Of a stretch of 64,000 nucleotides of DNA, positions 30,161 through 61,546 are shown piece by piece. Below the pieces are notes generated by a model. It did not search any database. It worked only from the letters and a program-made list of their open reading frames with translations, and was not told the origin of the DNA. The stretch's first letter is position 1. The number at the start of each line of letters is the position of its first letter. The position numbers and the translations under genes are program-made. The stretch is from Kitasatospora kifunensis (lineage in GTDB: Bacteria > Actinomycetota > Actinomycetes > Streptomycetales > Streptomycetaceae): the NCBI RefSeq assembly GCF_014203855.1, contig NZ_JACHJV010000001.1:5084001-5148000 (forward strand), given 5' to 3'.

Positions 30161-30251
30161 TTGTGCGCTTTCTGTAGCAGCTTGGTCCCAACCGAGTGGA
30201 CTGCCCTGGTCAGAGGCCTTTCGTCCCAGATTGCCTCAGTACGATCGCGGG

Positions 30252-31586
30252 ATGAACGTCTCCCTGTTGGACGGCTGGTTTCCGTGGACCGTCCAGCTCG
30301 CCGCCGCCGTCGCACTGCTGGTAGCGGTCGGCTGGCGGGACCGTCGCTGGCGGTTGCGCCGGGCCCCGATCGCGATCGGCGCCGCGGCCGCGCTGACCGC
30401 GCTGCTCGGACTGCTGACCGTCACCGTCGGCGGGGTCACCGACCCGCTGCCGCTCGCGCTCTGGTTCTGGCTGGGCGCGGCGGTGCTCGCGCTCGCCGTG
30501 CTGGTGTTCGGCTGGCGCTCGGCGCGCTGGTGGCGCCGCGCGCTGGCACCGCTGGCCGCGCTGCTCGCGGTGGTGGCCGGGGCCAACGCGCTGAACGCGT
30601 CCACCGGTTACTTCCCCACCCTGGACGACGCGATCGGTGAGCTCAGTGGCGCCCCGCTGCCCCAGCAGGTGACGCTCGACCAGCTCGGTTCGCTCACCGG
30701 CAAGACCAACACGGGCCGGATCGTCCAGGTGGACATACCCGACACCGCCAGTGGCTTCGCCCACCGGCAGGAGCTGGTCTACCTGCCGCCGGCCTGGTTC
30801 CGCAGCAAGACCCGACCCAAGCTGCCGGTGCTGGAGATGATCGGCGGCGAGTACGCGGCCCCCGACAACTGGGTGCGGGCCGGTGACGCGGTGCAGACCG
30901 CGGACGCCTACGCGGCCGAGCACGGCGGATTCGCCCCGGTGCTGGTCTTCGCGGACGCGACCGGCGGATTCAAGGTCGACACGGAATGCGTGGACGGGCC
31001 CAGCGGTATGGCCGAGGACCACCTGGTGAAGGACATTCCGCCGTACGTCGAGAAGACCTTCGACACCGCCACCGACCCGCGCAAGTGGGGCGTGGTCGGC
31101 TGGTCCATGGGCGGTACCTGTGCGATTGACCTGACGGTCGAACACCCTGGGACCTTCACGCATTTCGAGGACATCTCCGGCGACCTCGGCCCCAATACCG
31201 GGGACAAGCAGCAGACCATCGACAAGCTCTACGGCGGCGACGCGTCGGCCTGGGCGGCGCACGACCCGATGACCGTCCTGGCGCACCACGCCAAGTACCG
31301 TGACCTCTCCGGCTGGTTCGAGAGCGGGGACCAGGAAGGCAACCACATCGCGCAGGGCAAGGAGCTGGCGGCGGCCGCCCGCAAGGACGGGATCAAGTGC
31401 GAGCTGAGCGTGCAGCCGGGCCGACACGTCTGGCAGTTCGCCTCCACCGCGTTCGCCGAGGCGCTGCCCTGGCTCTCCCAGCAGTTGGGCACTCCGGGCC
31501 TGCACACCGGCAAGCCGGTGCCGGTGCCCACCCCGAAGCAGCCGCAGGCGAGCCCGAGCGCGTCGGCGCCCACCCCGAAGGTGTAA
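30252..31586 (+). CDS. Membrane-tethered alpha/beta-hydrolase esterase
   Basis: The 444-residue protein has about four N-terminal transmembrane helices (first ~115 residues), then an esterase-D/antigen-85-like alpha/beta-hydrolase domain with nucleophile Ser285 in GWSMGG, an acidic loop and a late His (PGRHVWQF). A Pro/Ser-rich tail ends the protein. The domain should face outside. The same plan recurs in the gene at 56906-58228. Substrate is unknown; family members act on acyl esters of sugars, lipids or glutathione. The ATG is 6 bases after TACGAT (30240-30245), indicating a leaderless mRNA. Confidence 0.78.
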   Translation: MNVSLLDGWFPWTVQLAAAVALLVAVGWRDRRWRLRRAPIAIGAAAALTALLGLLTVTVGGVTDPLPLALWFWLGAAVLALAVLVFGWRSARWWRRALAPLAALLAVVAGANALNASTGYFPTLDDAIGELSGAPLPQQVTLDQLGSLTGKTNTGRIVQVDIPDTASGFAHRQELVYLPPAWFRSKTRPKLPVLEMIGGEYAAPDNWVRAGDAVQTADAYAAEHGGFAPVLVFADATGGFKVDTECVDGPSGMAEDHLVKDIPPYVEKTFDTATDPRKWGVVGWSMGGTCAIDLTVEHPGTFTHFEDISGDLGPNTGDKQQTIDKLYGGDASAWAAHDPMTVLAHHAKYRDLSGWFESGDQEGNHIAQGKELAAAARKDGIKCELSVQPGRHVWQFASTAFAEALPWLSQQLGTPGLHTGKPVPVPTPKQPQASPSASAPTPKV

Positions 31587-51066: not shown

Positions 51067-51885
51067 TCAGGAGGAGGTCCGGCGACGCCGGTACTGGTGG
51101 AAGGTGGCCGCGCCCGCGGTGGCCAGGAGGATCACCCCGGCCAGCGTCTCGGGCATGTTGGGCCCGGTGCTGCCGCCCAGGCCCGCGTGCGAGGGGCCCT
51201 TGGGGCCACTGTCGCCGCGGCCGCCCGGCTGCTCGTGGTGACCGGCGCCGCCTGACTGGTCGGAGTGTCCTGACTCGCCCGGCTGTTCGTGGTGACCGGC
51301 GCCGCCTGACTGGTCGGAGTGTCCTGACTCACCGGGCTGCTCGTGGTGACCGGCGCCGCCCGGCTGATCGGAGTGTCCTGACTCACCGGGCCGCCCGGAG
51401 TAGCCCGACTGACCTGACTGACCTGACTGACCCGACTGACCCGACTGCTCGTCGTGGCCGGAGTGCTCCGATTGGCCCGATTGGCCCGACTGGCCCGACT
51501 GGCCCGACTGCCCGGGCTTGCCGTCGTGCACGGTGAAGCTGGTGGTCGCCTGGCTCCTGGTCAGCGCGGTGCACTTGATCGTCACGTCGTAGACACCGGG
51601 CCTGGCGCGCTCGGGGACGGTGGCCATGGCGCCCACCAGCCCGCGCAGTGAGCCGAGCTTGACCGAGGGGATCTCCTGACCGTTGCGGCCGCCCTGCTCG
51701 TGGGAACGGAAGACCGCCTGGCCGCCGGCGTTGTCGCAGTTGCCGCCGTCGAAGACAGCGAACTGGCCGCCGGGCTTGACCGGGTTCGGCTCGATGATGA
51801 CCGGATTGGCGGCGGCGGTGCCGGCGCAGCTGAGGCCGACGGCCAGGGCCAGCAGCCCGGTGGCGGCGAAGTGACGAGCGCGCAT
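51067..51885 (-). CDS. Repeat-rich secreted surface protein with C-terminal anchor
   Basis: The 272-residue protein has a signal peptide (1-26, cleavage near TAAAN), a small beta-rich domain with one Cys pair (about 27-120), a hydrophilic repeat region made of GQS triplets and about three 18-residue units (GESGHSDQSGGAGHHEQP), and a C-terminal sorting-like signal: MPETLAG, a hydrophobic stretch and RRRR. MPETLAG resembles a degenerate LPXTG motif, so sortase attachment is possible but a plain membrane anchor is as likely. A class F sortase gene is 5 kb away. Confidence 0.72.
   Translation of the reverse strand: MRARHFAATGLLALAVGLSCAGTAAANPVIIEPNPVKPGGQFAVFDGGNCDNAGGQAVFRSHEQGGRNGQEIPSVKLGSLRGLVGAMATVPERARPGVYDVTIKCTALTRSQATTSFTVHDGKPGQSGQSGQSGQSGQSEHSGHDEQSGQSGQSGQSGQSGYSGRPGESGHSDQPGGAGHHEQPGESGHSDQSGGAGHHEQPGESGHSDQSGGAGHHEQPGGRGDSGPKGPSHAGLGGSTGPNMPETLAGVILLATAGAATFHQYRRRRTSS
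51220..51385 (-). repeat. 54-bp coding tandem repeats in the surface protein gene
   Basis: About three near-identical 54-bp units encode the 18-residue GESGHSDQ(S/P)GGAGHHEQP module. Beside them (about 51395-51520) lie 9-bp units coding for GQS triplets. Such repeats change copy number easily. Confidence 0.85.
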
Positions 51886-52068: not shown

Positions 52069-53328
52069 TCAGTGTGCGGCGCCCAGGAAGCTCGACCAGT
52101 TGCCGGCCGGGGCCTCGCCGACCGACAGCGACTGCAGCTTGCGCAGCACGGCCGGCTCCTGCACCTCCAGCCACTGCACCAGCTGACGGAAGGAGACCAG
52201 CCTGACCTCGGGCTTCTCCGCGATGGTCTTGAGGACCTCCTCGACGGCGTTCATGTAGATGCCGCCGTTCCACCCCTCGAAGTGGTTGCCGATGTACATC
52301 GGTGCGCGGTTGGTGGTGTAGGCCCGCTCGAAGCCGGCCAGGTAGGACTCCGTGGCCTGCTTCTGCCAGGCGGCGTGCATCGACGAGTCGCCCTTGGTGT
52401 TGTCGCCGGACTGGTTGAACATGATGTTGTAGTCCATCGAGAGCACCTGGAAGGTGTGCCCGGGGAACGGGATGGACTGCAGCGGCATGTCCCACAGGGC
52501 GCCGCCCTGCACCTTCTGCGGCCACACCTGCAGCCCGCCCGGTCCGCTGGTGTCGTACTTCCAGCCGCGCGCGGCCGCCGTCGGGAGCAGTCCGCGCTGG
52601 CCCTCCAGGCAGGGCGCGCGGCCGCCGATCAGCTCCTTGCGGTAGTCGAAGGGCAGCGCCGGCAGGTCGGTGAAGCCGGTGTTGCTCTTCCAGTTCATGA
52701 CGAAGGACACCGCCTGCTCGATCTCGCTGTCCCAGTCCTCGGGCGACCACTTGCCGCCGCCGGTGGCGCCGCAGAAGTGGCCGTTGAAGTGGGTGCCGAT
52801 CTCGTGCCCGTCCAGCCAGGCGGAGCTGATCTGGGTCAGCGTGTCGTGGATGTGCTGGTCGCTCAGGTAGCCGATGTCGGAGGCGCCGACGCGGTGCTGC
52901 GGCGGGTGGTAGAGCTCCTTCTTGGACTCCGGCAGGGTGTAGATCCCGCTCAGGAAGAAGGTCATCGACGCGTCGTGGTCCCTGGCCAGCCGGCGGAAGC
53001 GGGAGAACAGCTTGTCGTCCAGCTCGCCCGCGCCGTCCCACGAGAAGACCACGAACTGCGGTGGCTTCTCTCCTAGTTCGAGCGGGACCGGTTGCGGCTG
53101 ACCGGGTTGCGGGCCGGTGTCGGAGGTCGAGCCGTCACCGATCAGGGTGGTGGGGGGCTTGGCGGGGGTGTTCGGCGTGCCCGGGGAGACCGAGGAGAGG
53201 CCGGTGTTCGGGAGCGGCGCGGCTCCGGTGGTGTTGGCGGTGGTGCCGGGGCGGGCGCAGCCGGCGGCCACCGTCGCGGCGGTGGCGGCGCCGGCGGCGA
53301 GCAGGGTTCGGCGGGACAGGGCGTCCAT
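52069..53328 (-). CDS. Polysaccharide deacetylase-like lipoprotein (Tat signal)
   Basis: The 419-residue protein begins with a twin-arginine signal (LSRRTLLAAG) and a lipobox (VAAGC), then a Thr/Pro-rich linker and a NodB-like domain from FVVFSWDGAGELDD. Metal-binding motif H-x3-H is present in GHEIGTHFNGHF. It would be an exported, lipid-anchored deacetylase of cell-wall or capsular sugar. The Asp motif is atypical, so activity is uncertain. ATG at 53328 is preferred to the adjacent 53331 because GGAG then has 5-base spacing. Confidence 0.8.
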   Translation of the reverse strand: MDALSRRTLLAAGAATAATVAAGCARPGTTANTTGAAPLPNTGLSSVSPGTPNTPAKPPTTLIGDGSTSDTGPQPGQPQPVPLELGEKPPQFVVFSWDGAGELDDKLFSRFRRLARDHDASMTFFLSGIYTLPESKKELYHPPQHRVGASDIGYLSDQHIHDTLTQISSAWLDGHEIGTHFNGHFCGATGGGKWSPEDWDSEIEQAVSFVMNWKSNTGFTDLPALPFDYRKELIGGRAPCLEGQRGLLPTAAARGWKYDTSGPGGLQVWPQKVQGGALWDMPLQSIPFPGHTFQVLSMDYNIMFNQSGDNTKGDSSMHAAWQKQATESYLAGFERAYTTNRAPMYIGNHFEGWNGGIYMNAVEEVLKTIAEKPEVRLVSFRQLVQWLEVQEPAVLRKLQSLSVGEAPAGNWSSFLGAAH

Positions 53329-53634
53329 CATCACTCCAGTTCGGGCGGGGCTCATGGGGTCTGGGCCGGTGGGCGGGCAACGGTGTGCCGCAGTGAGGGC
53401 GGACGGCGGGCCCAACGACGATGCAGTGCCCGGCTGGTGATGAATAGTCCGCTGAAAGACCGTTATGGGCGATTTGTCCAACAGCATGGCACGCTACGCC
53501 TCGGCTCAGCGGGAGGGCGTTGGTCAAACGCCCGTTAAGCGCAGTCGTACGGCGTGTCGAGTCGCGTCGCGACCCGAAAGATCATCAGATTGGACGCGGG
53601 CTGTGCAGTGCGGGGTGGGAGGAGCCGGGACGTC
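53329..53634. promoter_or_regulatory. Divergent deacetylase / MprF-operon control region
   Basis: No gene is seen in these 306 bases. GGGCGTT/AACGCCC (53515-53521 and 53527-53533) is a perfect 7-bp inverted repeat with a 5-nt loop, 100 bases before the operon start. GGGAGGAG (about 53617-53624) is a strong ribosome binding site for the ATG at 53635. Confidence 0.4.
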
Positions 53635-56244
53635 ATGTGGGAGTCGGTGCAGGGGGCGTACCACTCCCGGATCGTCGAAGCCGGGCGTGAGCCGCTCTTC
53701 CTGCTGCTGATCGGCTTGATCACGGCCTTCCTCTTCATCCGGTTCAGCACCCGGATGATCCGGCGCGGCACTCCGTGGTGGCCGGGCAACGTGACCCCCG
53801 GCGGCCTGCACATCCACCACGTGGTCTTCGGGCAGACGCTGATGCTGGTGGCCGGTGTCGGCGGCTTCGCCTACCACGGCTCGCACGGGCTGCTGCGCAA
53901 CGGGCTGGCGATCGCCTTCGGCGCGGGCTGCGGCCTGGTGCTGGACGAGTTCGCGCTGGTGCTGCACCTGGAGGACGTCTACTGGAGCGAGCAGGGCCGC
54001 AAGTCGGTGGACGCGGTGATCCTGGCGATCGCCCTGATCGCGCTGCTGCTGCTCGGCGAGCTGCCGCTGGGCGGGTTCACCGGCAGGCCCTCGATCGGGC
54101 AGCTGATCGGGGCCGCGGTGCTGCTCCTCCTGGTGGTGGTCAGCCTGCTCAAGGGCAAGCTGTGGACCGGGCTGATCGGTGTGATGCTGCCGGTGCTCGC
54201 CGTGGTCGGCGCGATCCGGCTGGCCCGGCCCGGCAGCCCGTGGGCCCGCTGGCGCTACCGCAGCCGACCCAAGCGGATGGCCCGCGCCGAGCGGCGCGAG
54301 GCCCGGGTGCACCGGCGGGTGACGGCGTTCAAGGCCCGGGCGTACAACCTGCTGGCGGGTGCCCCGGACGTCGTGCAGGGCGGTGACGTACCCCCGACCG
54401 CGCTCCCCGGGCCGGCCCTCGTCCCCGTCCCGGCCACCGCGCCCGTGCCGGTGCCCGCGCGTGCGCTGGCGCCCTGGCGCCGACGCTGCGCCGGCTTCGC
54501 CGAGTGGTACCTGCGGATCGCCGCCCTGCTCAACCTGCTGGCCGGGCTGATCGCCCCGTTCCGCGAGCGGGTGCAGCGGGCCAACAGCGGCGACTTCTTC
54601 ACCCCGGTGCTGGTCACCGCCGGATTCACCGCCGCGCTCTTCGCCGCTCTGCTCGCCGTGATGCTGCGCCGCCGCAAGCGGGCCGCCTGGATCGTGGCCA
54701 CCGCCGTGGTGGCGCTCTACGCCGTGCTCTTCGGCCTGGCCCTGGTCCTGTTGCCGGAGGATCGCGAGCACCCCTTCAACTGGGTCTCGGCCACGCTCAC
54801 CGCGCTGCTGCTGGGTGCCCTGCTGGCCAGCCGGCGTGCCTTCCACGCCCGCGGCGCCCGCGGGAACCTGCTGCTGGGGCTGTCGGTGCTGCTGGTCGGC
54901 GGCCTGCTGGTCACCACGCTCGGTGCCGTACTGGTGCACGCCGGCACCACCCCGCGGGCCGACTGGGGGGACTGCTTCGACTACGCGCTGGTGCGGCTGT
55001 TCACCGTCTCCGGCTTCGGCGAGGTGGCGCCGAGCGTGACCGTCAACCGCTGGGCGGGACTGACCATCAACGTGCTCGGCGCCGCGCTCTTCCTGCTGGT
55101 GCTGCGGGTCTTCTTCCGCTCCCCGCACGGCCGGGTGCTCCTGGAGCCGCAGGACGAACAGCGGCTGCGCGCCCTGCTGGAGCGGCACGGCGCGCGCGAC
55201 TCGCTCGGCTACTTCGCGCTGCGCCGCGACAAGTCGGTCTGCTGGTCGCCCTCCGGCAAGGCCGCCGTGCTCTACCGGGTGGTCAACGGTGTCTCGCTGG
55301 CCTCCGGCGACCCGATCGGCGACCCGGAGGCCTGGCCGCAGGCGATCGAGCGCTGGCGGGAGCTGGCCCGGCTCAACGCCTGGGTGCCGGCCGTCACCGG
55401 CGCGGGCGAGCAGGCCGGCACGATCTACCGGCGCACCGGCCTCAAGGCGCTGGAGTTCGGCGACGAGGCGATCGTCGAGGTGGCCGACTTCAGCCTGGAG
55501 GGCCGCAGCATGCGCACCCTGCGCCAGGCCCACAACCGGGTCCGCAAGGCCGGCTACCACGCGGTGATACGCCGGCACCGGGACATCCCCGAGGCCGAAC
55601 TGACCGCGCTGGTGCACCTGGCCGACGCCTGGCGGCACGGCCGCACCGAGCGCGGCTTCTCGATGGCGCTGGGCCGGCTCGGCGACCCGGCCGACGGCGA
55701 CTGCGTGATGGCCGAGTGCCGCGACGAGAACGACCGGACCTGCGCGCTGCTGAGCTTCGTGCCCTGGGGTGCGCACGGCCTCTCGCTCGACCTGATGCGC
55801 CGTGACCGGGAGTCTACGAGCGGCCTGGTGGAGTTCCTGGTCACCGAATTGCTGCTGCGCGGCAAAGCCCGCACGTTGCCGCTCACCCGGGTCTCGCTCA
55901 ACTTCGCGATGTTCCGCTACGTCTTCGAACAGGGCGGCAAGCTGGGCGCCGGGCCGGTGCTGCGGCTGTGCCGGGCCACGCTGCGCTTCCTGTCCCGGTG
56001 GTGGCAGCTGGAGTCGCTGTACCGGGCCAACGCCAAGTACCAGCCCAGCTGGGAGCCGCGCTTCCTGCTCTACGAGAAGTCCTCCGAGCTGCCCACCATC
56101 GCGGTGGCCAACGGTCTGGCCGAGGGGTTCCTGGTGCGGCCCAGGCTGCCGAGCGTGCGCTCGCTGCGCCGCGGCGAGCCTCACCCGTCCGGCGGCCCAG
56201 CCGATGCGGGCGGGCAGAGCTCCGGCTTGGCTGGGCAGGTGTGA
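53635..56244 (+). CDS. MprF-type aminoacyl-phospholipid synthase homologue with extra membrane domain
   Basis: The 869-residue protein has three parts: a membrane domain (about 1-200) with GGLHIHHVVFGQ and at least four helices; an MprF-like membrane domain (about 290-500); and a C-terminal LPG-synthase/DUF2156 domain (about 505-840; GDPIGDPEAWPQAI, LRQAHNRVRKAGY, SLDLMRRD). MprF enzymes move an amino acid from tRNA to phosphatidylglycerol and flip it, lowering surface charge and giving resistance to cationic peptides. The first domain is not part of standard MprF. It heads a four-gene operon with 4-bp overlaps. No lysyl-tRNA synthetase domain is attached. Confidence 0.82.
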   Translation: MWESVQGAYHSRIVEAGREPLFLLLIGLITAFLFIRFSTRMIRRGTPWWPGNVTPGGLHIHHVVFGQTLMLVAGVGGFAYHGSHGLLRNGLAIAFGAGCGLVLDEFALVLHLEDVYWSEQGRKSVDAVILAIALIALLLLGELPLGGFTGRPSIGQLIGAAVLLLLVVVSLLKGKLWTGLIGVMLPVLAVVGAIRLARPGSPWARWRYRSRPKRMARAERREARVHRRVTAFKARAYNLLAGAPDVVQGGDVPPTALPGPALVPVPATAPVPVPARALAPWRRRCAGFAEWYLRIAALLNLLAGLIAPFRERVQRANSGDFFTPVLVTAGFTAALFAALLAVMLRRRKRAAWIVATAVVALYAVLFGLALVLLPEDREHPFNWVSATLTALLLGALLASRRAFHARGARGNLLLGLSVLLVGGLLVTTLGAVLVHAGTTPRADWGDCFDYALVRLFTVSGFGEVAPSVTVNRWAGLTINVLGAALFLLVLRVFFRSPHGRVLLEPQDEQRLRALLERHGARDSLGYFALRRDKSVCWSPSGKAAVLYRVVNGVSLASGDPIGDPEAWPQAIERWRELARLNAWVPAVTGAGEQAGTIYRRTGLKALEFGDEAIVEVADFSLEGRSMRTLRQAHNRVRKAGYHAVIRRHRDIPEAELTALVHLADAWRHGRTERGFSMALGRLGDPADGDCVMAECRDENDRTCALLSFVPWGAHGLSLDLMRRDRESTSGLVEFLVTELLLRGKARTLPLTRVSLNFAMFRYVFEQGGKLGAGPVLRLCRATLRFLSRWWQLESLYRANAKYQPSWEPRFLLYEKSSELPTIAVANGLAEGFLVRPRLPSVRSLRRGEPHPSGGPADAGGQSSGLAGQV

Positions 56245-56909
56245 GCACCGATCAGCGGACGGGAGCTGGCGTGGGCGGGCAGCGCAGTCCCTGGTCGGCG
56301 GCGGTGCTGCTGGGGGCGACGGTGGTGCTGGGGGCCTGGCTGGTGCAGGACGGCAGCCGCGGCTCGCTGCCGCCCACGCCCTCCGCCGCCGAGGCGCAGG
56401 CCGACGGTGCGATCCGCCCTGCGGCGCTCAGCGGTACGCCGATGCGGGCCTCGGCGCCGATCCGGGTCAGGATCCCGGCGGTCGGCGTGGACGCCCCGGT
56501 GACCGGTGTCGGCCTGGACGGCGAGGGCCATCTGGCCACCCCGCCGGACCGTCAGCGCAATCTGGCGGGCTGGTACCGTGACGGGGTGACGCCCGGCCAG
56601 CGCGGCACCGCGCTGCTGATCGGCCACGTGGACACCGCCGCCGGCCCCGCCGTCTTCTACGGTCTGGGCGCGCTGCACCGCGGTGACCGGATCGACGTGG
56701 TCCGGCAGGACGGCACCACCGCCTGGTTCGTGGTCGACGCCGTCGACGTCTACGATCGGGCCGCCTTTCCGGACCACCGGGTCTACGGCCAGGCGCCGGA
56801 CCCGCAGCTGCGGCTGATCACCTGTGGCGGCGGGTTCACCGAAGGACAGGGCTACCGCGGCAACGTGGTGGTATTCGCACATCTGACAGGCCATCGGGGG
56901 GCACAGTGA
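56241..56909 (+). CDS. Class F sortase
   Basis: The 222-residue protein has an N-terminal membrane anchor (about 19-36) and a sortase fold with catalytic His129 (LIGHVDT), Cys195 (LITCGG) and Arg206 (GYRGNVVVFA). Class F sortases are common in actinobacteria, but few substrates are known. Both ends overlap neighbours by 4 bp (GTGA), so it is made together with the MprF-like proteins and the esterase. The surface protein at 51067-51885 is a possible substrate. Confidence 0.9.
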   Translation: MSTDQRTGAGVGGQRSPWSAAVLLGATVVLGAWLVQDGSRGSLPPTPSAAEAQADGAIRPAALSGTPMRASAPIRVRIPAVGVDAPVTGVGLDGEGHLATPPDRQRNLAGWYRDGVTPGQRGTALLIGHVDTAAGPAVFYGLGALHRGDRIDVVRQDGTTAWFVVDAVDVYDRAAFPDHRVYGQAPDPQLRLITCGGGFTEGQGYRGNVVVFAHLTGHRGAQ

Positions 56910-58228
56910 CGGCGGAACTGGCATGGGAAGGTCCGTTGGACTGGCCGATCACCAGCGGGGTGATACCGGTCCTGCTGCTGGCCCTCGGCTGGCTCGCGCT
57001 GGTCGGCCTGGCCGTCTCCAGCAGCACCCACTGGTGGAGCCGGCGCTTCCCGTGCGCCGTACTGCTGGCCGCGGCCCTCACCGTGCTGACGCGGGCCGTG
57101 GTGAACGACTGGTGGCAGCCGTGGCCCGACGGGCTGACCCGCGAGGTGGTGTTCTGGGTCGGGATCGGGATCCTCGGTCTGCTGCTGGCGCTCTTCCGGC
57201 TGCCCCCGCTGCGTTGGCGCGGCCGGTTCGCCGCGCTGGGCGCGGCGCTGCTGGTGCTCCTGATGTCCGGCTCGCAGATCAACCGGCAGTACGACCAGTA
57301 CCCGACCTTGCGGGTGCTGCTGGCTCCCTGGCTGCAGCACACCCCGAAGTTCTCGGCGGGCAAGGCCGCCAGCACCCTGAGCGCGCCCGGGGGGCGGACG
57401 CTGGCCGAGGTCTGGCACCGCCCGGCCGGTCTGCCGACCAAGGGCACCATCACCACCTCGCCGATTCCCGGGGTCAAGTCCGGCTTCAACCCCCGCGCCG
57501 CCTACGTCTACCTGCCGCCGGCCTACCAGGCCACCGAACCGCGCCCACTGCTGCCGGTGCTGGTGCTGATGGCCGGCCAGCCCGGGGGACCGGCCGACTG
57601 GGTCAACTCCGGCGACCTGGCCGGCACCATGGACTCCTTCGCCGCCGAGCACCAGGGCCTGGCGCCGATCGTGGTGGTGGTCGACCCGACCGGCTCCGAC
57701 TGGGCCAACACGCTCTGCATGGACTCCAGGATCGCCAAGGCACAGACCTACCTCGCCCAGGACGTGCCCGACTGGGTCCACGCGCACCTGCAGACCGGCA
57801 CCGGGCGCACCTCCTTCGCGATCGGCGGGCTCTCGCTCGGCGGCACCTGCTCGCTCCAGCTGGCCGTCAACGCGCCGCAGGTCTACGGCTCCTTCCTGGA
57901 CATCTCCGGCCAGGACGAGCCCACCCTGGGCAGCCACGACAAGACCGTGCAGGCGGCCTTCGGCGGCGACGAGGCGGCCTTCGACGCGGTGGATCCGCTG
58001 CATGTGATGGCCCGCCAGAAGTTCCCCGACACGGCCGGCGCGTTCGTGGTCGGCAAGAGCGACGGCGAGTACGGCCCTCAGCAGAAGAAGGCCTATCAGG
58101 CCGCCGTCGCGGCGGGGATGAAGGTGACCTTCACCGAGGTGCCCGGCGGCCATGACTGGACCGTCTTCCGGGCCGGGCTGCGCGGCCAGCTGACCTGGTT
58201 GTCGCAGCAGTTCGGGCTGATCAGATGA
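56906..58228 (+). CDS. Membrane-tethered alpha/beta-hydrolase esterase (operon member)
   Basis: The 440-residue protein has about four N-terminal helices (first ~120 residues) and an esterase-D/antigen-85-like domain with nucleophile Ser310 (GGLSLGGTC) and a late His (GGHDWTVF). It is built like the esterase at 30252-31586. Between two MprF-type genes, a plausible role is hydrolysis or transfer of aminoacyl or acyl groups on envelope lipids, since some bacteria pair aminoacyl-PG synthases with hydrolases; this is inference. Confidence 0.8.
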   Translation: MTAELAWEGPLDWPITSGVIPVLLLALGWLALVGLAVSSSTHWWSRRFPCAVLLAAALTVLTRAVVNDWWQPWPDGLTREVVFWVGIGILGLLLALFRLPPLRWRGRFAALGAALLVLLMSGSQINRQYDQYPTLRVLLAPWLQHTPKFSAGKAASTLSAPGGRTLAEVWHRPAGLPTKGTITTSPIPGVKSGFNPRAAYVYLPPAYQATEPRPLLPVLVLMAGQPGGPADWVNSGDLAGTMDSFAAEHQGLAPIVVVVDPTGSDWANTLCMDSRIAKAQTYLAQDVPDWVHAHLQTGTGRTSFAIGGLSLGGTCSLQLAVNAPQVYGSFLDISGQDEPTLGSHDKTVQAAFGGDEAAFDAVDPLHVMARQKFPDTAGAFVVGKSDGEYGPQQKKAYQAAVAAGMKVTFTEVPGGHDWTVFRAGLRGQLTWLSQQFGLIR

Positions 58229-60771
58229 GTCCGGCAGAGCCGCACGCGTCCGGCCCCCTCACCCCGGACGCGGGCTCCGCGCAGCCCGTCACCCCGCGCC
58301 CCGAGGCCTCCTGGCGGCGTGGGGTGCGCGCCTTGGTACTGGTGGCCAGGGCGCTGCGCCGGGCGCCGCTGACGGTGGCGCTGACCGTGTTGCTCTGGGT
58401 GGTCGGCGGGCTCACCGGGAGCCTGGGCTCGGGCCCTTCGCCACGGCTGCTGTCGCGGGTCGGCGTGGGCATCCCGACGCTGGGGGAGGGGCGCTGGTGG
58501 ACCCCGGTCAGCTCGCTGCTCTGGTGCTCGGGCATCACCGCCTACCTCCTGACCACCGCCGGGCTGCTGCTGATCGGGCCGATCGCCGAGCGGCGGCTGG
58601 GGCGACGGCGGGCCGGCGCGGTGGTGATCGCCGGCCAGCTGGTCGGCGTGCTGCTGGGCACCGGCCTGGTGCGGCTGGGCATCGCGGTCGGTGAGACCTG
58701 GACCCAGGGGCTGAACGAGCAGATCGCCCTCGGCCCGGCGCCCGGGCTGTTCGCGCTGGCCGGCGCGCTCAGTTTCAGGCTCACCGCGCTGTGGCGGCGC
58801 CGGCTGCAGCTGGTGGTGGTGCTGGTGCCGCTGGTGCTGATGCTCTACGTCGGCCACCTGCCGGCCGTCCAGCGCCTGGTCGGGGCGGTCTTCGGGCTGG
58901 TCGCCGGGCTGCTGCTGGCCCACGGCCGGGTGGCCTGGCGGCCGCGCCGGCCCTCGCACGCCGAGACCCGGGTGCTGGTCGCGCTCTGCGTGGCCGGCTC
59001 CGCGCTCGGGCCGCTGGTCGCCTCGCTCTACCGGGACGCCTACGGCCCGTTCAACACCTTCAGCGACCTCTACTTCTCCCGACCGCCCAGCGCCGAGGAC
59101 ATCGCCTACGCCTGCTCGGTGTCGGCCGACGAGTGCGCGCACCTCAAGTCCTCGCTGCACTTCTTCGACTCGCCGGGGCGGCTGATGGCCGCGCTGATCC
59201 CGGTCCTGCTGCTGGTGCTGGCCGAGGGGCTGCGGCGCGGGCTGCGGCTGGCCTGGTGGTGCATCGCGGTCGTCCAGCTGCTCTGGATCGCGCTGCTGAG
59301 CTGGCTGCTCAAGGTGCTGCTGGAGCAGGCCGGCGACCTCGGCGGGCCCAGCCAGGTCTGGCAGCTGGTCGGCGAGGCGCTGCTGATGCCGGCGCTGGTG
59401 CTGCTCCTGCTGCTGGTCACCCGCAAGCGCTTCTCGCTGCGGCTGCCCGCCCGGGACCTCAGGCGACTGGGCCTGGTGATCGGCGGCACCTTCCTGGCCG
59501 CCTGCCTGGCCTACGTCGGGATCGGCTACCTGGTGCGCGACCAGTACAACCCGGACGCCACCTTGCCCGCGCTGCTCAAGGGCCTGCCCTCGGAGTTCCT
59601 GCCGCCCGCCTACAACGACCTGATCCTCAGCTCTCCGGTGGCCGTCGGCGGCACCTCGCAGGCCGTCACCACCTACGTCGGACTGCTGTTCTGGGTGGTG
59701 GCGCTGCTCGCCCTGCTGCTGGCGTTCCGCCGTCCGAGCGTGCAGGCGGACGCGGCCCGGGCGCGCGAGCTGCTGACCCGCCACGGCGGCTCGACCCTGT
59801 CCTTCATCGCCACCTGGGACGGCAACCACTACTGGTTCGACGAGCACGGCGAGGCCGCCGTGCCGTACCGGGTGATCTCCACCGTGGCGCTGACCACCGG
59901 CGATCCGTTCGGCGAGCCGGCGGCCCGGCAGCGGGCGGTGGGCGGGTTCGCGGCGTACTGCGACGCGCGCGGCTGGACCCCGTGCTTCTACAGCGTCACC
60001 CCGCAGACCCGCCAGGAGGGCGAGCGGCTCGGCTGGCGCTCGCTGCAGGTGGCCGAGGACACCGTGGTGCCGCTGGCGGAGCTGGCCTTCACGGGGAAGA
60101 AGTGGCAGGACATCAGGACCTCGCTGAACAAGGCCAAGAAGCAGGGCATCACCGCCGAGTGGTGGAGCTGGCAGCACGCGCCGCTGGCCGTGCGCGACCA
60201 GGTCCGCTCGATCTCCGAGGAGTGGGTGGCCGACAAGGGACTGCCCGAGATGGGCTTCACCCTGGGCGGCCTGGACGAGCTGGCCGATCCGGCGGTGCGG
60301 ATCCTGGTCGCCGTCGACCAGGAGCGCACGGTGCACGGGTTGACCAGTTGGATGCCGGTCTATCGGGACGGCGAGCCGATCGGCTGGACGCTGGACTTCA
60401 TGCGTCGCCGTGCGGAGGGGTTCCGCGGCGTGATGGAGTTCCTGATCGCCTCCGCCGCGCTGGGTTTCAAGGAGGAGGGAGCCGAGTTCCTGAGCCTGTC
60501 CGGCGCGCCGCTGGCCCGGGCGGACCGCGGCCTGCCGCAGACCGCGCTGCAGCGGATGCTGGACTGGATGGGAAAGAGCCTGGAGCCGGTCTACGGGTTC
60601 CGCTCGCTGCTGGCCTTCAAGGCGAAGTTCCAGCCCGAGTACCGGCCGATGTACATGCTCTACCCCGACCCGGCGGCGCTGCCCAACATCACCCGGGCGA
60701 TCGGCAAGGCCTACCTGCCGCACCTGACGCCCGGTCAGGGCATGCGGCTGATGCGCAGGCTGTCGGGCTGA
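58225..60771 (+). CDS. MprF-type protein with rhomboid-like domain lacking catalytic residues
   Basis: The 848-residue protein starts with a rhomboid-like domain (about 75-250; GRWWTPVSSLLWCSG, GPIAERRLG) in which the GxSG-type motif reads GPAPG and the helix-6 His is missing, so it should not be a protease. A middle membrane part (about 270-500) and a C-terminal DUF2156/LPG-synthase domain (about 505-840; TTGDPFGEPAARQ, LNKAKKQGI, LDFMRRR) follow. It is the last gene of the coupled operon. Confidence 0.82.
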   Translation: MSPAEPHASGPLTPDAGSAQPVTPRPEASWRRGVRALVLVARALRRAPLTVALTVLLWVVGGLTGSLGSGPSPRLLSRVGVGIPTLGEGRWWTPVSSLLWCSGITAYLLTTAGLLLIGPIAERRLGRRRAGAVVIAGQLVGVLLGTGLVRLGIAVGETWTQGLNEQIALGPAPGLFALAGALSFRLTALWRRRLQLVVVLVPLVLMLYVGHLPAVQRLVGAVFGLVAGLLLAHGRVAWRPRRPSHAETRVLVALCVAGSALGPLVASLYRDAYGPFNTFSDLYFSRPPSAEDIAYACSVSADECAHLKSSLHFFDSPGRLMAALIPVLLLVLAEGLRRGLRLAWWCIAVVQLLWIALLSWLLKVLLEQAGDLGGPSQVWQLVGEALLMPALVLLLLLVTRKRFSLRLPARDLRRLGLVIGGTFLAACLAYVGIGYLVRDQYNPDATLPALLKGLPSEFLPPAYNDLILSSPVAVGGTSQAVTTYVGLLFWVVALLALLLAFRRPSVQADAARARELLTRHGGSTLSFIATWDGNHYWFDEHGEAAVPYRVISTVALTTGDPFGEPAARQRAVGGFAAYCDARGWTPCFYSVTPQTRQEGERLGWRSLQVAEDTVVPLAELAFTGKKWQDIRTSLNKAKKQGITAEWWSWQHAPLAVRDQVRSISEEWVADKGLPEMGFTLGGLDELADPAVRILVAVDQERTVHGLTSWMPVYRDGEPIGWTLDFMRRRAEGFRGVMEFLIASAALGFKEEGAEFLSLSGAPLARADRGLPQTALQRMLDWMGKSLEPVYGFRSLLAFKAKFQPEYRPMYMLYPDPAALPNITRAIGKAYLPHLTPGQGMRLMRRLSG

Positions 60772-60806: not shown

Positions 60807-61256
60807 TCAACCCAGCAGCTCGGCCAGGGCACGGTCGGCGTCCAGGTGCCGGCCCTCCTGGCCCTCGGGCACGCAGCGGTAGCTGGCCCACAGGAAGCGC
60901 CGCAGGTCGCCGGCCTCGAAGCGGAGCAGCGCGACACCCTCGGGCGCCCGCAGCTCGACCATCGTGTGCGGGCCGCGCGAGGGCCTGATGTGCACGTCAC
61001 CCAGCCCGCTCGGCAGGTCGAGCCCGCTCGCCAGCAGCTGCCGGGCGAAGACCCACACCACCTCGGCCCCGGGCGCCGGCTCCGTCGGCTCGTCCAGCGG
61101 GGCCGCCGTGTCCAGCGAATATTCCGCCGGGAACGCCATCCGCACCGCGAGCGGGTCCGCGGCCCGGTAGCGCAGGGTCACCCGCAACTGCGTGGAGCAG
61201 TGGCTGGACAGGATCAGGCGGGCGTGGACGGCCTGCTCGACGACGGCGCTGCGCAT
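60807..61256 (-). CDS. ssgG: SsgA-like sporulation/cell-division regulator (SsgG-like)
   Basis: The 149-residue protein fits the SsgA-like family restricted to morphologically complex actinomycetes (LILSSHCSTQLRVTLRYRAADPLAV, VWVFARQLLASGL, RFEAGDLRRFLW). These proteins control septum placement in aerial hyphae. By remembered synteny with SCO2924 it is probably SsgG, but assignment within the family is not certain. AAGGAG lies 6 bases before the ATG. Confidence 0.82.
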   Translation of the reverse strand: MRSAVVEQAVHARLILSSHCSTQLRVTLRYRAADPLAVRMAFPAEYSLDTAAPLDEPTEPAPGAEVVWVFARQLLASGLDLPSGLGDVHIRPSRGPHTMVELRAPEGVALLRFEAGDLRRFLWASYRCVPEGQEGRHLDADRALAELLG

Positions 61257-61546
61257 GGGGGGCTCCTTGGGGTGAGGACGGGCCTGTGTGAGGAGAGAGT
61301 GCTGGGCCGCCGATTGATTACACGGCTTGAGGGTGATCCCGGTCACCTGGACTGCGCCGATCGGGTGAGCTCCGACGCAGTGCCTGGTAGGCCGCTCGCG
61401 GCGGGCAAGCGGGCGGCGCGCGCCGCCGGTGTCGAGGCCGCTCTGTCGGCGCCGCCCGGTAGGCTAGGCGGGTTGTCCGATCGCCCGCCCATCGCGGAGC
61501 TGGGCCGCTTCACCGCCCTGACCTGCGACGATCCCCCTCGGAGACC

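Follow-up and report, generated by a model that had tools for sequence, protein, structure and literature searches.

A class F sortase gene placed among predicted aminoacyl-lipid synthase and esterase genes in Kitasatospora kifunensis

Why should a class F sortase be encoded in one operon with proteins predicted to attach amino acids to membrane lipids? The question is raised by a locus of Kitasatospora kifunensis within a stretch of 64,000 nucleotides (contig NZ_JACHJV010000001.1, positions 5,084,001 to 5,148,000; hereafter the window, whose own numbering is used below). Four plus-strand genes occupy positions 53635-60771 and are joined by consecutive 4-bp overlaps (GTGA, GTGA, and ATGA). They code for an MprF homologue that we call M1 (53635..56244), a class F sortase (56241..56909), a putative pesT-type esterase (56906..58228), and a second MprF homologue, M2 (58225..60771). 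A first-pass annotation had described this set as two MprF-type proteins, a class F sortase, and a membrane esterase linked by the same overlaps; the coordinates were confirmed, and profile matches (PF09924, NF033748, and PF00756) bear out the families. It had also noted that no description of the four-part set was known, and none was found among the papers listed by our literature searches, which covered open-access papers and the beginnings of abstracts. We propose that the operon makes and remodels membrane aminoacyl-lipids and co-produces a class F sortase, a reading to which we assign a probability of roughly 0.6.

One site in the genus, four configurations

Relatives were sought in 61 genomes, 37 of them from the genus of the window (its own included), by locating the esterase, the sortase, and HIHH, the N-terminal membrane domain of M1; loci were fetched for the 36 others. 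The sortase gene was found at one site in 37 of 37 genomes, each time with M1, M2, or both. What is new here is that all sampled genomes of the genus have this sortase at the same site, accompanied by one or both synthase genes. The site is flanked on one side by a major facilitator superfamily (MFS) gene and the gene at 52069-53487, and on the other by an SsgA-like gene and a helicase gene. Two of the fetched loci, L045 and L050, lie on cut contigs; the 52069-53487 gene was detected in 34 of the 36 on-site relatives, and the remaining two are on cut contigs.

Since the genes recur in the same order in same-genus relatives, with protein identities of about 50-85%, the operon is not a chance assembly. 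The first-pass annotation had named random neighbours in related genomes as grounds for giving up the idea of a unit, and what the genus contains is a conserved block. With labels assigned by hand, the 37 genomes fall into four configurations: sortase-esterase-M2 (16 genomes), M1-sortase (11), M1-sortase-esterase-M2 (9), and M1-sortase-M2 (1). The proposal of a four-part unit therefore holds in part: the set is conserved at the site, but it is one of four configurations, present in 9 of 37 genomes, and the older stable pair is esterase-M2. The 4-bp overlaps, scored from the nearest start codon, are kept in 19 of 24 loci between sortase and esterase and in 27 of 28 between esterase and M2. M1 and M2 seem to be interchangeable. 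A tree built from the helicase and MFS proteins of the flanks requires one change for M1, four for M2, and five for the esterase; it yields a single independent M1-M2 pair, which allows no test of statistical dependence between the two. Away from the site, four esterase-M2 loci without a sortase (L028, L030, L039, and L040) occur in three genomes of the genus.

Where M1 is missing (16 genomes; L034-L038 and L042-L052), a strongly conserved stretch lies upstream of the sortase gene, with a repeat like TTCCCAGGAAACTCCCAGGAA that is possibly a regulator site.

Two synthases and an esterase

M2 combines a rhomboid-like N-terminal domain (residues 89-232; 58489..58920, plus strand), a transmembrane region, and an LPG_synthase_C domain (residues 514-813; 59764..60663, plus strand), the last matching PF09924 with 280 bits over profile positions 1-298; there was no tRNA-synt_2 match. 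The rhomboid match (PF01694) is weak, at 25.7 bits for a cut-off of 22.6. At the position of the catalytic GxSG motif the window protein reads GPAPG, GASVG is read in L053, L055, and L058, and no serine is conserved among 26 aligned M2 proteins (two from the same locus). An active rhomboid protease was rejected because the GxSG serine is absent from the window protein, and by sequence the domain is probably not a protease. Against the curated bifunctional MprF model, whose cut-off is 600 bits, M2 and M1 scored 187 and 185 bits, each through its C-terminal part alone.

The esterase consists of an N-terminal hydrophobic region and an alpha/beta-hydrolase domain (PF00756, 71 bits) with conserved Ser310 (in GLSLGGTC) and His416. 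An esterase gene directly upstream of a gene for a rhomboid-like plus LPG synthase protein was found in 69 of 80 named loci, in Corynebacterium, Rhodococcus, Gordonia, Williamsia, Arcanobacterium, Mobiluncus, and other genera. These 80 were kept from 405 loci, do not include C. glutamicum, and in part recur in the unnamed sets; the 11 without the tandem include L277, whose contig ends 108 bp past the esterase gene. The tandem was also present in the order's other family (L053-L057), in a Mycobacteriaceae-like family (12 of the 20 loci fetched), and in three (L165, L166, and L173) of 20 esterase loci from across the class. Order-wide, 8 of 147 genomes had such an esterase, and three genomes of the sister genus g15, of the same family, had the tandem.

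M2 aligned with the products of the genes that follow the esterase in Corynebacterium (L233, L238, and L255) and Mobiluncus at 35-36% identity over 765-819 amino acids. With the second protein of the C. silvaticum tandem, identity was 36% over 765 amino acids, in an alignment that starts inside the rhomboid-like region and reaches the end; that protein had no lysyl-tRNA synthetase (LysRS) match, as expected for AlaDAGS and not for LysX. The matching counterparts are those of C. silvaticum, C. lowii, and C. pacaense, the C. glutamicum proteins being outside the 80 of 405 loci. Judged from its distribution and these alignments, esterase-M2 is an old actinobacterial tandem of the pesT-alaDAGS type, and this half of the operon is not new. 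The window pair shares with the C. glutamicum pair a PF00756 esterase gene directly upstream of the gene for an MprF homologue without LysRS, the nature and position of pesT being as reportedly described. It differs in that its genes overlap by 4 bp and follow a class F sortase gene, to which part of the genomes add a second synthase gene with HIHH in front.

Work by Smith et al. in 2015 is said to have found that pesT is the esterase encoded upstream and is needed for alanyl-phosphatidylglycerol (Ala-PG). AlaDAGS itself makes alanyl-diacylglycerol (Ala-DAG) (PMC10580965). Because of the Corynebacterium alignments, the reports on AlaDAGS, and the role reportedly assigned to pesT, we read M2 by analogy as a putative Ala-DAG-type synthase and the esterase as a putative aminoacyl transacylase. 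At the cytoplasmic face, M2 would use aminoacyl-tRNA as the donor of an amino acid (most likely alanine) for a lipid that is most likely diacylglycerol. The esterase, which its membrane helices would keep on the outer side, would then move the aminoacyl group from this lipid to phosphatidylglycerol, or hydrolyze it. The first-pass annotation had left open whether the esterase removes or transfers the group; its likeness to the pesT-alaDAGS system makes transfer the probable activity. That the esterase is instead a hydrolase, stripping aminoacyl groups to tune lipid charge like the aminoacyl-PG hydrolases of Enterococcus and Pseudomonas, seems unlikely to us. Such hydrolases are known, to go by reference titles in PMC10580965, and the alpha/beta-hydrolase fold with its conserved serine and histidine would suit one, as would its sequence relatives of solved structure, most of which are feruloyl and carbohydrate esterases. 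The pairing of the esterase with an AlaDAGS-type synthase, however, matches the C. glutamicum pair linked to Ala-PG synthesis (PMC10580965; role of pesT as reportedly described). A role of the M2 half in charge-based resistance is not a given, because deletion of alaDAGS in C. pseudotuberculosis left resistance to the tested antimicrobials unchanged, whereas deletion of lysX altered it (PMC10580965).

A second esterase of the same family lies elsewhere in the window (30231-31586, plus strand), after an smpB-like gene and in what looks by eye like an ftsE-ftsX neighbourhood. It is 35% identical to the operon esterase, and none of the four PF09924 matches of the genome is located there.

M1 carries, behind HIHH, a PF16995-type transmembrane region (residues 286-492) and an LPG_synthase_C domain, i.e., a predicted GNAT-type aminoacyl-tRNA transferase (PF09924, 310 bits; residues 512-813; 55168..56073, plus strand). 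Compared with LysX of Mycobacterium and Corynebacterium, which makes lysyl-diacylglycerol (Lys-DAG) (PMC10580965), residues 282-840 of M1 match the LysX model NF002821 with 601 bits, under the cut-off of 742; M1 differs in lacking the LysRS domain and in having HIHH in front. It is closer to two LysX-side paralogues of the same genome, L062 (57% identity) and L063 (44%), than to M2-type proteins (23-28%), which places it, as far as sequence goes, on the LysX (Lys-DAG) side of the MprF homologues. M1 would accordingly be expected to make a second aminoacyl-lipid, probably Lys-DAG. The earlier suggestion of an envelope-modification unit is thus retained with its two different aminoacyl-lipid synthases and its esterase, although the esterase-M2 half is of a known type.

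The two LysX-side paralogues are encoded at C1:3961035 (L062) and C1:3674029 (L063), with no LysRS in the stretch scanned. L063 belongs to a divergent pair (C1:3674029-3677301) resembling sco3396 and sco3397 of Streptomyces coelicolor, where esterase and MprF genes are likewise neighbours (PMC6767563) and where an sco3397 mutant is more sensitive to vancomycin and bacitracin (PMC3123327, PMC6767563). The window genes are a different paralogue set: the esterase shares 26% identity with its L063 counterpart, and M1 shares 44% with the synthase of that pair.

The sortase and the extent of its link to the synthases

The sortase matches PF04203 and, with 208 bits for a cut-off of 166, the class F model NF033748; its sequence starts with what reads as a hydrophobic anchor. 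All 26 sequences compared have His129 and Cys195. The third residue of the His-Cys-Arg triad given in the first-pass annotation has to be corrected: Asn208 is invariant (26/26), while position 206 is Arg in just 2 of 26 sequences and Glu, Asp, Gln, or Lys in the other 24. The conserved set His-Cys-Asn agrees with the description of actinobacterial class F sortases in which Asn replaces Arg (PMC6998099), and both the model score and these residues put the protein with the class F sortases of Cutibacterium acnes and Actinoplanes missouriensis (SrtF1-4), from which it differs by its place in a predicted lipid aminoacylation operon. Class F sortases are described as having no known physiological role (PMC13251363). 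The window sortase would anchor surface proteins in the membrane region modified by M1, M2, and the esterase, and the arrangement suggests that aminoacyl-lipid decoration and protein anchoring may work together at the cell surface. That each sampled genome of the genus encodes a class F sortase beside aminoacyl-lipid synthases is a concrete, testable lead on the role of these sortases and also on what actinobacteria use aminoacyl-lipids for.

Besides its constancy in the genus, two observations from elsewhere support a link between sortase and synthases. In L058, from another family, a sortase-M2 pair, a convergent esterase gene, and a stand-alone HIHH gene lie within about 5.5 kb. In two genomes of the sister genus g15 (G069 and G108), the domain-to-domain distance between a class F sortase and a LysX with its LysRS domain is 2.6-2.8 kb; one sister-genus LysX scores 1612 bits against NF002821. 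G108 has a polysaccharide deacetylase gene in the interval, and in both genomes the sortase has neighbours that code for secreted proteins whose C-terminal tails are basic. This deacetylase was considered as a relative of the 52069-53487 protein and found to be unrelated. At the MFS-helicase site itself, the two flanking genes adjoin and none of the four genes is in the region, in 8 of 8 fetched g15 regions, and the four genes were also absent from two further regions of another family.

Several findings weigh against our reading. Across 69 genomes of the class, class F-like sortases gave 101 matches (E <= 1e-10) in 40 genomes and PF09924 gave matches in 38, yet just 3 of the 101 sortases have an LPG synthase within 10 kb on their contig, namely those of the window, G069, and G108 (coordinates were compared by hand, and many of the genomes are in many contigs, so that neighbours may be missed). 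Outside the genus, esterase-M2 pairs have no adjoining sortase except in L058 and, loosely (about 3.5 kb), in L221. Within it, the rule that the sortase never occurs without a synthase goes back to few events (one change for M1, four for M2, and five for the esterase), and the M1-sortase overlap is present in just 2 of 8 four-gene relatives, by the nearest start codon. The match to pesT-alaDAGS, moreover, is one of architecture and runs through Corynebacterium relatives, C. glutamicum being absent from the named loci, and the available text of PMC10580965 contains neither the word "esterase" nor the word "operon". The sortase-synthase link is specific to certain sortases and is no rule of the class.

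Such figures would also suit an ordinary cell-wall sortase that shares a promoter with lipid genes, the link being one of common expression in envelope stress or sporulation. The low count of sortases near synthases favours this alternative, and so do the neighbours, which include the SsgA-like gene and a further conserved gene, as if the island were a co-regulated envelope set; in S. coelicolor, sco3396 (esterase) and sco3397 (mprF) are sigma-E targets, and the word "sortase" is absent from the available text of PMC6767563. We nevertheless hold it to be the less probable explanation, possible but doubtful. All 37 genomes have the sortase, whichever synthases accompany it, its overlap with the esterase gene is mostly kept (19 of 24 loci), and a separate sortase-M2 pair in another family and sortase-LysX neighbours in the sister genus repeat the association. 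Nor was a sigma-E-like promoter found upstream of M1; a stricter search of the window gave 2 matches for 1.58 expected, so sigma-E regulation was rejected for the window gene. A loose sigma-E pattern was matched in some relatives.

If the operon acts as we propose, what would the sortase anchor? The first-pass annotation had it act on a neighbouring surface protein, which is possible, a candidate being encoded at 51067..51885 on the minus strand; this gene, however, was detected in just 5 of 37 genomes. By position and layout (a signal-peptide-like start, a collagen-like repeat, NMPET, a C-terminal hydrophobic stretch, and RRRR) the protein is a putative substrate. Its similarity to a secreted protein encoded beside a sister-genus sortase (34% over 102 amino acids, E = 5e-6) is suggestive only. 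A search of 42 fetched loci for LPxTG-like motifs gave two matches alone, both apparently in wrong frames. Beside a sister-genus class F sortase, two secreted-looking proteins (L345 and L346) end in a hydrophobic stretch and a basic tail. Tails such as TGATPTDMA followed by a hydrophobic stretch and RRR may point to class F sortases recognizing a signal other than LPxTG.

A more far-reaching version of the proposal, which we consider improbable, is that the free amino group of the aminoacyl-lipids predicted for M1 and for M2 with the esterase (Lys-DAG, Ala-DAG, or Ala-PG) serves the sortase as acceptor, so that surface proteins become linked by their C terminus directly to membrane lipid. The sortase would then be constant while M1 and M2 interchange because either synthase could supply an amine lipid. 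The analogy is with archaeosortase, associated with PssA/PssD, and with rhombosortase, which share the idea of C-terminal protein processing tied to an amine-bearing lipid and differ in enzyme families and lipids (PMC7157517, PMC6219818). In Methanosarcina, artA adjoins amine-lipid genes, and in a Haloferax pssA mutant the S-layer glycoprotein loses its lipid attachment, the lipid amine having been proposed as nucleophile (PMC7157517); a rhombosortase substrate carries a glycerophosphoethanolamine-type group (PMC6219818). No lipid-linked product of a class F sortase was found among the open-access papers listed by the searches, judged from the beginnings of abstracts. If true, lipid attachment would be a bacterial counterpart of anchoring by archaeosortase to archaetidylethanolamine and by rhombosortase to phosphatidylethanolamine, and a first role for class F sortases.

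The HIHH domain and the flanks of the island

HIHH occupies residues 1-210 of M1 (53635..54264, plus strand), with about five or six transmembrane helices in a structure model. The motif noticed in the first-pass annotation is real: in 48 sequences H59, H61, and H62 are invariant, as are, among others, R36, R43, G66, D104, D114, Y116, W117, G121, S124, P144, K173, G174, and R195. By the positive-inside rule, the invariant polar residues would be on the cytoplasmic side, the same side as the synthase domain. A single frame runs through HIHH and synthase in 20 of 21 M1 genomes, whereas L328 has them in two. Of 296 genomes of the class, 99 had HIHH matches, most of them to stand-alone proteins; by these matches the domain is a widespread uncharacterised membrane family.

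The window domain had no Pfam match and no relative in a PDB sequence search (each at E <= 1); among the 48 members, scattered weak Pfam matches (best E = 0.002; TspO in 4 of 48) were taken as chance. The structure model reached a predicted local distance difference test (pLDDT) score of 84.6 (an earlier one from 10 sequences, with pLDDT 56, was left unused). Foldseek found no fold in PDB at E <= 0.001, and VIA-align gave middling Z values (best 8.4 over 86 residues, with a multidrug pump), a result that is no proof of a new fold.

Our guess is that HIHH handles the lipid acceptor, which it would probably supply, bind, or move at the cytoplasmic face. It could instead be an unrelated membrane protein, fused by accident and acting outside lipid aminoacylation, though we find this rather unlikely. 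Its mostly stand-alone occurrence fits an accident, as does the scarcity of LPG synthase genes near it (in 4 of 40 fetched HIHH regions) and the lack of a clear common neighbour. The fusion in the genus of the window retains the invariant residues, however, and unfused copies do stand beside esterase or LPG synthase genes: the 4 of 40 regions (L098, L099, L118, and L119) compare with about 0.3 expected by chance, a hand estimate with no tree correction, and further cases are L054, L058, L059, L221/L312, L347, and L348, which were selected through an esterase or LPG synthase match. HIHH is thus an uncharacterised, highly conserved membrane protein for which the fusion is a clue to lipid aminoacylation. 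The two largest open reading frame families near stand-alone copies were discarded: found on the strand opposite to the HIHH gene, overlapping it or next to it, they resemble antisense frames. The source genome has a second, stand-alone HIHH gene (C1:4582270-4582896, L095), 63% identical to the M1 domain. Many genomes (e.g., G027:C60 and G015:C2) also contain a shorter HIHH-like family, matching model positions of about 10-145 with E values of 1e-20 to 1e-27, perhaps a second subfamily.

Upstream of M1, the divergent gene of the same island (52069..53487, minus strand) codes for a protein that belongs to no Pfam family and matches a Tat signal below threshold. Downstream, the island is bordered by the SsgA/SsgD-like gene (60807..61346, minus strand), which was detected at the site except in L044 and L049.

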